NCBI GenBank assembly: GCA_902554765.1
Contig: CACDPY010000002.1
Span: 62,001 to 126,000, forward strand
Reading direction: 5' to 3'
Source: an uncultured Pelagibacteraceae bacterium
Lineage (GTDB): Bacteria > Pseudomonadota > Alphaproteobacteria > Pelagibacterales > Pelagibacteraceae
Length of the DNA: 64,000 bases
In this document: piece after piece, positions 52,587 to 57,045 of the stretch
Layout of the letters: every line of letters begins with the position of its first letter
Numbering within the stretch: position 1 is the first letter of the stretch
Position numbers and translations under genes: made by a program
The notes under the pieces: model-generated
The model's database searches: none
Seen by the model: the letters and a program-made list of their open reading frames with translations, nothing else
Told to the model about the DNA's origin: nothing

Positions 52587-53496
52587 CTTGAGTAAAAGCT
52601 TCTGCAAATTTTTCAGCTTCAAATATTTGTAAGTCATCTTCTTTCTCTCCTAAACCTAAAGCAATAATTGGAAGTTTATATTTTTTTGCTAATGCCAAAA
52701 GAATTCCACCTTTAGCAGTTCCATCTAATTTCGTCATGACAATTCCTGTTATTGGAATAATCTTGTTGAATTCCTCTACTTGATTTATAATATTTTGGCC
52801 GGAAGTTGCATCTAAAACTAAAATAACATCATGTGGTGCATCAGGATCTATTTTTTTTGTTACATTTGCAATCTTTTTATATTCCTCCATTAAATTTTTT
52901 TTATTTTGAAGTCTTCCAGCTGTATCGATTAAAACTTGATCAAAATTATTATTAATAGCTTCCTCAATCGCTTTATATGCAACAGAAGCAGGATCAGACC
53001 CTTGTGAAGATTTAGTTATTTGAACATTAATTTTATTAGCCCAATTTTCTAATTGTTCAATTGCTGCGGCTCGAAAAGTATCTGAAGCTGCAAACATAAC
53101 TTTATTACCATTACTTTTTAAAATTTTTCCAATTTTACCAATGCTTGTTGTTTTACCAACACCATTTACTCCAGAAATTAAAGTTGCATTAAGTTTTTCT
53201 TTTTTCAAAAAAAAAGTACTGTTCTCCAAGGGTTTCATTAATGAAACAATATATTCTTTTAAGATTAGATTAATTTCTGATGTTAAATCTTTATTAGGAT
53301 CTACTTTCTTAGTTGAAATTATTTCCTTTATTTCAGAAGCAGCTTCAATTCCAACATCTGATTGGATTAAAAATTCCTCAATTTTGTCTAAATTTTCATC
53401 ATCTATTTCTTCTTTTATAATTATTTCTTTAAGACCAGATGAAAAAGCCGAAGCACTTTTTTGAAAACCTTTTTTAAATTTATCAAATATTCCCAT
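52579..53496 (-). CDS. ftsY: Signal recognition particle receptor FtsY
   Basis: LISGVNGVGKTTSIGKIGKIL; AASDTFRAAAIEQLENWA; VLIDTAGRLQNKKNLMEE; MTKLDGTAKGGILLALAKKYKLPIIALGLGEKEDDL. Confidence 0.97.
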   Translation of the reverse strand: MGIFDKFKKGFQKSASAFSSGLKEIIIKEEIDDENLDKIEEFLIQSDVGIEAASEIKEIISTKKVDPNKDLTSEINLILKEYIVSLMKPLENSTFFLKKEKLNATLISGVNGVGKTTSIGKIGKILKSNGNKVMFAASDTFRAAAIEQLENWANKINVQITKSSQGSDPASVAYKAIEEAINNNFDQVLIDTAGRLQNKKNLMEEYKKIANVTKKIDPDAPHDVILVLDATSGQNIINQVEEFNKIIPITGIVMTKLDGTAKGGILLALAKKYKLPIIALGLGEKEDDLQIFEAEKFAEAFTQVS

Positions 53497-54320
53497 TATA
53501 ATTTTATTGAGATTTTCTTTATACCTGAAACAGGACCTTTCATGTGAATAGAATTTTTTTCATCTATAAAAATTGATAATTTTCCAGTCTCAAATTCTAT
53601 ATCTGTATTTTTATTAGTAAGGTTATTTAACAAACCAGCGAATGCTGTAGCACATGCTGCAGTTCCACATGCTTTTGTTAACCCAGCACCTCTTTCCCAC
53701 ACTTTAACTTTAATTAAATTTTTATTCATAACTTTAGCAATTGTAACGTTACATTTTTCTGGAAATATTTTGTGATTTTCTATAAGTGGACCAATTTTGG
53801 CAATATCAAAATTTTCAATTTCATCCATAAAAAAAATAACATGAGGGTTTCCAACATTTACGGCAGTGCCACCATAATATTCGTTGTTATTAATATCATT
53901 AATTTTTATATTTAGATTGAGTGTATCAAATTCACTCGATAGAGGAATCTCATTCCATTTAGTTTTTGCTATCCCAATTTCAGTTGTAACTAGATTATTT
54001 TCTAATATTTCAGATTTTAAATTACCGGATGGAGTAGTTAAAATTATAGTTTTATTATCTTTTTCTCTTGAAATTAAATCAGCAACACATCTTGTGCCAT
54101 TACCACATGCACCAGATTCTCCACCATCAGAATTAAAAAATTTCAAACTAGCATTAGTTATTTTATCATTTTCAATTAATATTAATTGATCACATCCAAT
54201 AAAATTTCTATCGCAAATTTTTATTATTTGCTCTTTTGATAAGTCTGTAACTTTTTGTCTATTATCAATGATGACAAAGTCATTACCTAATCCATCCATT
54301 TTAAAAGCTTTTATGTCCAT
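53496..54320 (-). CDS. dapF: Diaminopimelate epimerase
   Basis: FKMDGLGNDFVIID; FFNSDGGESGACGNGTRCVA; VNVGNPHVIFF; WERGAGLTKACGTAACAT. Confidence 0.97.
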   Translation of the reverse strand: MDIKAFKMDGLGNDFVIIDNRQKVTDLSKEQIIKICDRNFIGCDQLILIENDKITNASLKFFNSDGGESGACGNGTRCVADLISREKDNKTIILTTPSGNLKSEILENNLVTTEIGIAKTKWNEIPLSSEFDTLNLNIKINDINNNEYYGGTAVNVGNPHVIFFMDEIENFDIAKIGPLIENHKIFPEKCNVTIAKVMNKNLIKVKVWERGAGLTKACGTAACATAFAGLLNNLTNKNTDIEFETGKLSIFIDEKNSIHMKGPVSGIKKISIKL

Positions 54321-54342
54321 ATATAGTTATTTAACTTATTTA

Positions 54343-54369
54343 TTGACTTTTTTGAACCTCTATTATAGT
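54343..54369 (+). promoter_or_regulatory. Putative promoter for the ffh leader/operon
   Basis: TTGACT - 15 nt - TATAGT; predicted start about 54375; short spacer lowers confidence. Confidence 0.35.
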
Positions 54370-54373
54370 TTGT

Positions 54374-54462
54374 GGCACTTTCCGCAAAAACGTTAAATTT
54401 GCGGTGTCTTTGGAAACAAAGAGATCGACACTAGTCAGCGAGGGTTCGCCCACTAGTGCGAT
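54374..54462 (+). ncRNA. Candidate structured RNA (three consecutive hairpins), leader of ffh-rpsP-trmD-rplS or a separate small RNA
   Basis: CCGCAAA(54382-54388)/TTTGCGG(54398-54404); TCTTTG-GAAA-CAAAGA (54407-54422); ATCG-A-CACTAGT-CA-GCGA-GGGT-TCGC-CC-ACTAGTG-CGAT (54424-54462). Confidence 0.65.
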
Positions 54463-54482
54463 TACTGCTGTGTGTAATAAAT

Positions 54483-55841
54483 ATGTTTGAAAATTTAACA
54501 AATAAATTCGAAGAAATTTTTTCTTCTTTAAAAAAATCTCCTTCACTTGATGAAAATCAGGTTGATGAAGGCTTGAGAGGTATTAGACAAGCTTTACTTG
54601 AAGCAGATGTCTCACTTGATGTAGCTAAAGAATTTATTGAAAAAGTTAAGCCAAAAGCTTTAGGACAAGAAATAATTAGATCCACATCACCGGGGGATAT
54701 GGTGGTTAAGATCGTTTATGATGAATTGGTTAGTCTACTCGGCGAAAAAAATAACGATGTAAATCTTAATGCAGTTCCACCGGTACCAATGATGTTGGTT
54801 GGACTACAAGGCTCTGGTAAAACGACTACAACAGCAAAACTTGCCAAGTATCTCGAGAATACGAAAAAAAAGAAAGTTATGATGGTTAGCTTAGATATTT
54901 ATAGGCCAGCCGCTCAAGAACAATTAAAATCGTTAGGAGAACAAAATAATATTTTAACACTTCCAATTATTGAAGGTCAACAACCGGCTGATATTTGTCA
55001 AAGAGCTATCAGTGCAGCAAATTTAAATGGTGCTGACATTATCTTATTTGATACTGCAGGTAGGACACAGATAGACCTACAAATGATGAGTGAAATTAAA
55101 CAAATTGAAAATACAATAAAACCTGCAGAAACATTTTTGGTTGCAGATTCTCTTACAGGACAAGTGGCTGCGTCTGTAGCAAAAGAATTTAAGAATACTG
55201 TCAATCTTTCAGGAATAATTTTAACTAGAGCGGATGGTGATGCTAGAGGTGGAGCAGCTGTAAGTATGAAATTCATTTCTCAAGTTCCAATTAAATTTTT
55301 AGGAGTAGGTGAAAAAATTGAAAATCTTGAAGTGTTTCATCCAGATAGAATTGCAAATAGAATTTTGGGAATGGGAGATATTGTGTCTCTTGTAGAAAAA
55401 GCAGCACAAGATTTAGGTGAAGAAAATATTAAAAAGGCTGAAGAGAATTTAAAAAAGGGACAATTTTCAATGCAAGATTATTTAACTCAATTACGACAAA
55501 TGAAAAAAATGGGTGGAATAGAAGGTGTGATGTCTTTTATGCCGGGTGTATCTAAGGTTAAGTCTCAAATGGATGCTGCAGGTATAGATGAAAGCATTAT
55601 TACAAAAAATGAAGCGATAATTTTGTCTATGACTAAAAAAGAGAGAGAGAACCCAAAAATAATTGACGGTTCTAGAAAAAAAAGAATTGCTAATGGTTCT
55701 GGAACAGATCCAGCCACTATCAATAAATTGCTAAAGCAATTTAAAATGATGTCTGAAATGATGAAAAAGATGTCCAAAGGAAATCTGAAAGGTATGACTG
55801 ATAAAGGAATACCACCAGAATTATTTAATCAACTAAAATAA
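54483..55841 (+). CDS. ffh: Signal recognition particle protein Ffh
   Basis: MFENLTNKFEEIFSSLKKSPSLDENQVDEGLRGIRQALLEADV; GLQGSGKTTTTAKLAKYL; DTAGRTQIDLQMMSEI; GDARGGAAVS; C-terminal M domain. The ATG at 54483 fits better than the track start at 54456. Confidence 0.97.
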   Translation: MFENLTNKFEEIFSSLKKSPSLDENQVDEGLRGIRQALLEADVSLDVAKEFIEKVKPKALGQEIIRSTSPGDMVVKIVYDELVSLLGEKNNDVNLNAVPPVPMMLVGLQGSGKTTTTAKLAKYLENTKKKKVMMVSLDIYRPAAQEQLKSLGEQNNILTLPIIEGQQPADICQRAISAANLNGADIILFDTAGRTQIDLQMMSEIKQIENTIKPAETFLVADSLTGQVAASVAKEFKNTVNLSGIILTRADGDARGGAAVSMKFISQVPIKFLGVGEKIENLEVFHPDRIANRILGMGDIVSLVEKAAQDLGEENIKKAEENLKKGQFSMQDYLTQLRQMKKMGGIEGVMSFMPGVSKVKSQMDAAGIDESIITKNEAIILSMTKKERENPKIIDGSRKKRIANGSGTDPATINKLLKQFKMMSEMMKKMSKGNLKGMTDKGIPPELFNQLK

Positions 55842-55855
55842 AAAAAGGAGAGTAA

Positions 55856-56344
55856 ATGTTAAAGTTAAGGTTATCAAGAGGAGGAACAAAAAAAAGACCT
55901 GTATACAAGGTTGTTGTAGCAGATAGTCGTTTTGCAAGAGATGGAAGATTTATTGAAAAAGTAGGTTTTTTCAATCCATTACTTCCTAAAGAAAAAAAAG
56001 AAAGAATTGGACTTGAGGCTGAAAGAATTAAGTATTGGTTAGGCCAAGGTGCACAACCAACAACAAGAGTAGCAAGAATTTTAGGTGAAAATGAATTAAT
56101 GCCTATGCCTGCTAATGGAAACAATCCTCAAAAAGCAGTTCCAAAGAAAGATAGAAAAAAAGAGGGATCTGAAGAAGCTCCTAAAGCAGATGCAGCACCA
56201 GCAGCAGAAGCTAAAAAAGAAGAAGCTCCTAAAGCAGATGCAGCACCAGCAGCAGAAGCTAAAAAAGAAGAAGCTCCTAAAGCAGATGCAGCACCAGCAG
56301 CAGAAGCTAAAAAAGAAGAAGCTCCTAAAGAGGAAAAAAAATAA
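55856..56344 (+). CDS. rpsP: 30S ribosomal protein S16 (bS16) with a repetitive C-terminal tail
   Basis: [41 protein letters not shown]; tail of [16 protein letters not shown] repeats. Confidence 0.97.
56171..56314 (+). repeat. Three perfect tandem 48-bp repeats within rpsP
   Basis: gaagaagctcctaaagcagatgcagcaccagcagcagaagctaaaaaa at 56171, 56219 and 56267, plus a partial fourth copy from 56315. Confidence 0.97.
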
Positions 56345-56358
56345 TATAAATTTTGCCT

Positions 56359-57045
56359 ATGTTTCAAGCCCGAGTATTTACTCTTTATCCAGAAGTTTTT
56401 GCCGGACCTTTATCTAAAGGCCTTTACGGAAAGGCTTTGTCTAATAAATTGTGGGACTTAAGTGTAATAAACATAAGAGACGCAGCCACTGATAAACACA
56501 AAACAGTCGATGATACTCCTTACGGAGGAGGGACAGGAATGTTGTTAAAAGCTGATGTTTTAGCAAATGCACTTGATCAAAAAGTTAAAAAGGGAGAAAG
56601 GGTTTTTTATCTTTCGCCTAAGGGTAAAAAATTTGATCAGAAACTTGCTAAAGAACTTTCAAAAGAAAAATCTATTTCTTTAATATGTGGTCATTTTGAA
56701 GGAGTGGATGAAAGAGTTTTAACCACAAGGAACATTGAAGAAATAAGCATAGGCGATTATGTTCTGTCTGGAGGTGAAACAGCTGCATTTGTAGTACTTG
56801 ATAGTATTCTTAGACTTTTGCCTGGAGTTTTAGGTAATGATAAATCCTCACTTGATGAAACCTTTGAAAATGGTCTTTTAGAGTATCCTCAATATACAAA
56901 ACCTCAAATATGGGAGGAAAAATCAGTGCCAGATGTATTATTATCTGGAGATCATAGTAAAATTAAAGACTGGCGTTTATCTCAATCTGAGGCTATAACA
57001 CGCGACCGAAGACCAGATTTGTGGCAAAAATATAAGAAGAACTAA
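56359..57045 (+). CDS. trmD: tRNA (guanine-N1)-methyltransferase TrmD
   Basis: [89 protein letters not shown]. Confidence 0.97.

Follow-up and report, generated by a model that had tools for sequence, protein, structure and literature searches.

A conserved three-hairpin RNA containing the ffh motif (RF01793) precedes the rpsP-trmD operon of alphaproteobacteria and may be a ribosomal-protein leader

Introduction

In the account of Meyer et al. (2009; PMC2704228), the ffh motif of 'Ca. Pelagibacter ubique', a member of SAR11, lies at the junction of dapF and ffh and is a single bulged hairpin, supported by covariation and widely found in Rhodobacterales, Sphingomonadales, and Rhizobiales. The motif is unlike the Ffh-bound part of 4.5S RNA, and a role in ffh regulation was tentatively suggested; it has also been seen as a small RNA in metatranscriptomes (PMC2704228). 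In Mesorhizobium, the same family, Rfam RF01793, is catalogued as an expressed sRNA, MH_s5 (PMC5596092), which is plasmid-borne in M. huakuii. Our literature search found no functional study of RF01793 after 2009. A second point of reference is the S16 leader of Flavobacteria, which lies upstream of rpsP(-rimM) and for which bS16 is the proposed ligand (Eckert and Weinberg 2020; PMC7247131). Here, we describe a locus of the first kind and compare it with these systems.

Results

Three adjacent hairpins lie between dapF and ffh

The window, i.e., the whole stretch of 64,000 nucleotides that was analyzed, corresponds to positions 62001-126000 of contig C2 of a SAR11-type genome (879 kb, 71% complete). 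The features around the dapF/ffh junction are the following:

53496-54320, leftward: dapF
54343-54348 and 54364-54369, + strand: promoter-like -35 (TTGACT) and -10 (TATAGT) elements, read from the sequence
54382-54388 and 54398-54404, + strand: P1 hairpin, CCGCAAA/TTTGCGG, from the MFE fold and covariation; outside the Rfam model
54402-54405, + strand: shared strand CGGU, pairing with CCG 54382-54384 (P1) or AUCG 54424-54427 (P2 base)
54407-54412, 54413-54416, and 54417-54422, + strand: P2 hairpin, TCTTTG, loop GAAA, and CAAAGA
54405-54424, + strand: P2 with its basal pairs; only the 3' part overlaps the Rfam model
54429-54458, + strand: P3 hairpin, with a 7-bp outer stem, a 4-bp inner stem, and a GGGU loop
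54414-54467, + strand: match to Rfam RF01793 'ffh' over model positions 1-52 of 52 (cmscan, 54.4 bits against a gathering score of 35)
54459-54471, + strand: single-stranded tail with the conserved pattern C--U----GYUKG (positions 1-13, counted from the end of P3), from base frequencies
54483-55841, + strand: ffh, the SRP protein (TIGR00959, 555.8 bits, cut-off 473.2)
55856-56344, + strand: rpsP, bS16 (TIGR00002, 99.2 bits, cut-off 45.3)
56353-57045, + strand: trmD, an ORF whose homologue at the PS1-like locus L200 is TIGR00088/NF000648
57047-57610, + strand: rplS, bL19, an ORF whose L200 homologue is TIGR01024

The hairpins span 54382-54458, downstream of the promoter-like site, which had already been remarked on in the initial annotation. 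The TTGACT and TATAGT elements are separated by a spacer of 15 nt, and a transcription start at about 54376-54378 is predicted from them; SAR11 relatives carry similar promoter-like elements at a similar distance from the RNA. The ffh ATG is at 54483, and 24 nt separate it from the end of P3. In the ORF listing, rimM was not found between rpsP and trmD (56344-56353) of this genome. The bS16 of the window has a C-terminal extension built of near-identical repeats (56128-56344), and the bS16 of the PS1-like locus L200 carries a shorter acidic/alanine-rich tail.

In P3, the outer stem is formed by CACTAGT (54429-54435) and ACTAGTG (54452-54458), followed by a 2x2 loop (CA/CC) and by the inner stem GCGA (54438-54441)/TCGC (54446-54449), closed by the loop GGGT. 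The MFE fold of 54374-54482 consisted of exactly P1, P2, and P3, at -36.6 kcal/mol, while dinucleotide shuffles gave -24.2 +/- 3.0 kcal/mol (z = -4.16), with none of 200 as low. Both the presence of three hairpins, read directly from the letters in the initial annotation, and its remark that such a density of hairpins is unusual are thus borne out. That annotation also drew P3 as a compound stem, extended by ATCG (54424-54427)/CGAT (54459-54462). The extension does form in the window, but it is not conserved: in an alignment of 29 relatives, its four column pairs were formed in 22, 16, 20, and 24 rows, with no compensatory change, and it was rejected as a conserved part of P3. A long-range stem that would join the tail to the 5' end found no support either, as the 5' ends paired no better with their own tails than with those of other genomes (53 leaders, permutation p = 0.31).

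The RNA core is the known ffh motif and not 4.5S RNA

The core of this RNA, P3, is already known as the "ffh motif" or "ffh sRNA": RF01793 was the sole Rfam match of the element at the gathering cut-off, and by the yardstick that the initial annotation itself had set for novelty, the idea that the RNA is new has to be given up. The window element shares with the published motif the dapF/ffh junction and P3, including the bulge with two conserved cytosines, here C54436 and C54451. It differs in that the published motif is one bulged hairpin tied to ffh, whereas conservation here extends to P1, P2, and the tail, and in that the motif also persists upstream of rpsP without a detectable ffh. A position upstream of ffh therefore holds for the window and is not general, since rpsP follows in the PS1-like family described below.

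The initial annotation had argued that the element is not 4.5S SRP RNA, and this holds. No match to RF00169 was found at 54200-54600, even at E <= 5, and the 4.5S RNA of the same genome lies elsewhere, between pheA and dnaX (locus L002, G000:C11:4255-4347), which is also its place in HTCC1062 (PMC2704228). The likeness of the leader to 4.5S RNA consists of a gene-neighborhood association with Ffh; it has neither helix-8 features nor an RF00169 match, and a divergent 4.5S RNA is ruled out as its identity. The 4.5S gene at C11:4255-4347 scores 33 bits, under the Rfam cut-off of 40 bits, so automatic annotation would miss it.

Structure beyond the Rfam model is conserved and covaries

For the analysis of covariation, 29 diverse leaders from two SAR11-order families and from Rhodobacter-like genomes were aligned with MAFFT, which is blind to structure. 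RNAalifold recovered P2 and P3 unaided from this alignment. For the three-helix structure, 89.9% of cells were paired, against 74.6% in shuffles, and the covariation score was 0.456, against 0.188 in the shuffled and 0.07-0.11 in the slid controls; because the shuffle control ignores relatedness, these figures are not probabilities, and the slid control, which keeps relatedness, is the better guide. By helix, P1 had 86.5% of its cells paired and changes on both sides in three of seven pairs, P2 had 90-92% of its cells paired and double changes in four to six pairs, and P3 had seven pairs with double changes.

A covariance model built from the 29 leaders (R1) matched all 78 loci, among them those of the PS1-like family, that had not been used for training; in 77, the match covered the whole model. 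In the R1-fitted alignment of these loci, about six rows of which are chance matches, all helices covary again. The 52 nt upstream of P3 had a mean folding-energy z of -2.7 in SAR11, -2.3 in the PS1-like family, and -1.5 in other alphaproteobacteria, in which P1 is often weak or absent. The count of three hairpins in the initial annotation, which improves on the published single-hairpin model, is thus supported by covariation; the conservation and covariation of P1 and P2, neither of which is in the Rfam model, across the 29 alphaproteobacterial leaders are new.

The strand CGGU can pair either in P1 or at the base of P2. The P2 base, YGGU/AUCR, is paired in 28-29 of the 29 rows, with a compensatory change from C-G to U-A, and its YGG is also the end of P1. 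By an alignment-based count, columns 30, 50, and 78 read G-C-G in 22 of the 29 rows and A-U-A in four, so that the shared base tracks both of its partners. Both pairings are formed in most rows, and in the window the energies of the two conformers, computed without the P3 extension, are less than 1 kcal/mol apart. This pattern suggests that the pairings of CGGU with P1 and with P2 are mutually exclusive and may constitute a switch, with few independent changes behind the exchange.

For the 2x2 loop of P3, a more apt description is that of an invariant C.C mismatch (C54436.C54451 in the window) next to a covarying A.C position (A54437.C54450). The C.C mismatch was present in 159 of 160 loci. 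At the position beside it, the same loci had A.C (121), C-G (15), A.A (9), G.U (7), U-A (6), G-C (1), and U.C (1). In the tail, C1, U4, and GYUKG at positions 9-13 are kept in SAR11, in the PS1-like family, and in other alphaproteobacteria, the window having the last-base variant GCUGU. Of 76 leaders of other alphaproteobacteria, 28 have a TTTT tract within 10 nt past P3, but none of the 50 SAR11 leaders does; any terminator role is thus at most lineage-specific. In some Rhodobacter-like genomes (loci L039 and L046), the tail makes a further hairpin, CAAAACC...GGTTTTG, directly after P3.

The genes that always follow the motif are rpsP and trmD

RF01793 was detected in 114 of 150 relatives and in at least 112 of 387 members of the class, the latter count being a lower bound, as few candidates were scored per high-GC genome. 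Among 160 loci, the next gene was ffh in 154 (same strand, directly downstream) and rpsP in five, and one locus ended with its contig. Outside SAR11, the distance from the motif to ffh ranged from 8 to 284 nt. In Rhodobacter-like genomes, rpsP is 2-2.6 kb behind ffh, with other genes intervening. Two of these genomes (G162 and G487) have opposite-strand ORFs that part rplS from trmD, and in a third (G382) rplS was not found within ~6 kb of trmD, these ORFs being unannotated and the strand calls provisional; in all three, the motif is strong. The genes always retained downstream of the motif are rpsP and trmD.

In Sphingomonas parapaucimobilis (NZ_CP155749.1, 764449-766091; L239/L240), the ffh operon carries an insertion between rimM and an unannotated trmD, made up of a VapC/AbrB toxin-antitoxin pair and an oxidoreductase on the opposite strand. 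This break was discarded as proof that trmD and rplS are dispensable, as both are found just past the insertion.

A PS1-like family keeps the motif without a detectable SRP

All the loci in which rpsP is the next gene belong to one family, f42, whose public record names include PS1 clade, OCS116 cluster, MED-G09, and others. The motif was found in 14 of the 18 genomes of f42, and wherever the next gene could be read it is directly upstream of rpsP, with no ffh between. The gene order is dsbE, mtaB, dapF, motif, rpsP, trmD, rplS, and leuC-like; ffh is missing from its usual place and ftsY from its place beside mtaB. The genomes searched were G183, G289, G370, G438, and G500 plus five relatives (loci L197-L201, L204-L209, L211, and L212). 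The Ffh model TIGR00959 had no matches in five f42 genomes that are 93-97% complete, and it matched in all 14 control genomes. PF00448 had no match above its cut-off in ten f42 genomes, against two strong matches in each of five comparison alphaproteobacteria. The same ten genomes gave no match to 4.5S RNA (RF00169), of which each of the five comparison genomes had one. These ten genomes, of which five reach a completeness of 93-97%, point to an apparent loss of the whole SRP in this marine, PS1-clade-like alphaproteobacterial family. To our knowledge, the SRP is nearly universal.

Discussion

The motif seems best explained as a leader, composed of P1, P2, P3, and the tail, that acts in cis on the (ffh-)rpsP-(rimM)-trmD(-rplS) operon, likely under feedback by an RNA-binding protein that the operon encodes, with bS16 as the most parsimonious ligand; we give this reading about an even chance. 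As expected of a ribosomal-protein leader, a structured and conserved RNA is found 5' of a ribosomal-protein operon. Since the SAR11 operon has no rimM and three Rhodobacter-like genomes have a decoupled rplS, only rpsP and trmD are always kept, and bS16 would emerge as the ligand from this intersection of retained genes, in which TrmD is as constant as bS16. As a ribosomal protein and a binder of 16S rRNA, bS16 is the more plausible ligand of the two, and an rpsP leader is known in Flavobacteria. The Flavobacteria leader is alike in lying ahead of rpsP(-rimM) and in having bS16 as its proposed ligand, but it belongs to another phylum and is a separately described motif; it is a parallel in the way of working only. 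Against the bS16 reading stands the distance of 2-2.6 kb by which rpsP trails ffh in Rhodobacter-like genomes. Likeness to the rRNA site of the bound protein is frequent in ribosomal-protein leaders, though not required; with model R1, the E. coli 16S, 23S, and 5S rRNAs and one SAR11 16S region gave chance-level matches only.

If the motif is such a leader, P3 with its C.C/A.C internal loop may be the binding platform, and the ligand would either shift CGGU from one of its partners, P1 and P2, to the other or trap one of the two forms. In SAR11, this shift could alter ribosome access to the start codon 24 nt downstream, and in lineages with a U-tract past P3, premature termination could change instead. 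Given the range of distances between the motif and ffh outside SAR11, a mechanism in which the start codon is directly occluded cannot hold for all lineages.

The position directly upstream of ffh in most loci, and the fact that Ffh is an RNA-binding protein, fit the suggestion of Meyer et al. that Ffh, or the balance between Ffh and 4.5S RNA, binds the leader and controls ffh. P3, however, is unlike SRP helix 8 (see also PMC2704228), and family f42 keeps the motif before rpsP with Ffh, FtsY, and 4.5S RNA undetected. The presence of the motif thus does not seem to require Ffh or 4.5S RNA, and since an element that senses either should not outlive them, we consider SRP autoregulation very unlikely. 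Of the two kinds of cis-regulation that the initial annotation had put forward, control by a ribosomal protein is therefore now the leading hypothesis and SRP autoregulation is disfavored; the ribosomal rpsP operon is more likely than the SRP to be under the control of the motif, judging from family f42. A leader of the same type might still answer to TrmD, bL19, or RimM and not to bS16, an option that we hold unlikely, if the least so of those weighed here. For it speak the presence of trmD downstream in every lineage examined and the known bL19 leaders of other phyla (RF00556); against it, the SAR11 operon does without rimM, three genomes (G162, G487, and G382) have a decoupled rplS, and we know of no precedent for TrmD as an autoregulator.

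It is also rather improbable that the motif is a stand-alone, trans-acting small RNA with its own promoter and an end at P3, as the Rfam type (sRNA) has it. Its detection as a small RNA in metatranscriptomes (PMC2704228), the expressed MH_s5 of Mesorhizobium (PMC5596092), and the U-tract past P3 in part of the other alphaproteobacteria would agree with this, but SAR11 leaders have no such tract, the short distance to ffh in the window leaves scant space for a terminator of its own, conservation continues past P3 into the tail, and the motif always heads the rpsP-trmD operon. A passive, ligand-free 5' UTR that stabilizes the mRNA or limits initiation would account for stable hairpins at the predicted 5' end, as such hairpins protect mRNA; an invariant C.C mismatch and a tail conserved in sequence exceed the needs of a passive hairpin, and we see little probability in this explanation.

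With bS16-responsive feedback on the rpsP operon as the preferred reading, the natural experiment offered by f42, in which the motif is kept and the SRP goes undetected, would reduce the question of SRP or ribosome control to a few candidate ligands, with bS16 first. The extended three-helix model provides a better tool for searches and better targets for mutagenesis. A marine alphaproteobacterial lineage that apparently lacks any SRP is, moreover, of interest in its own right.
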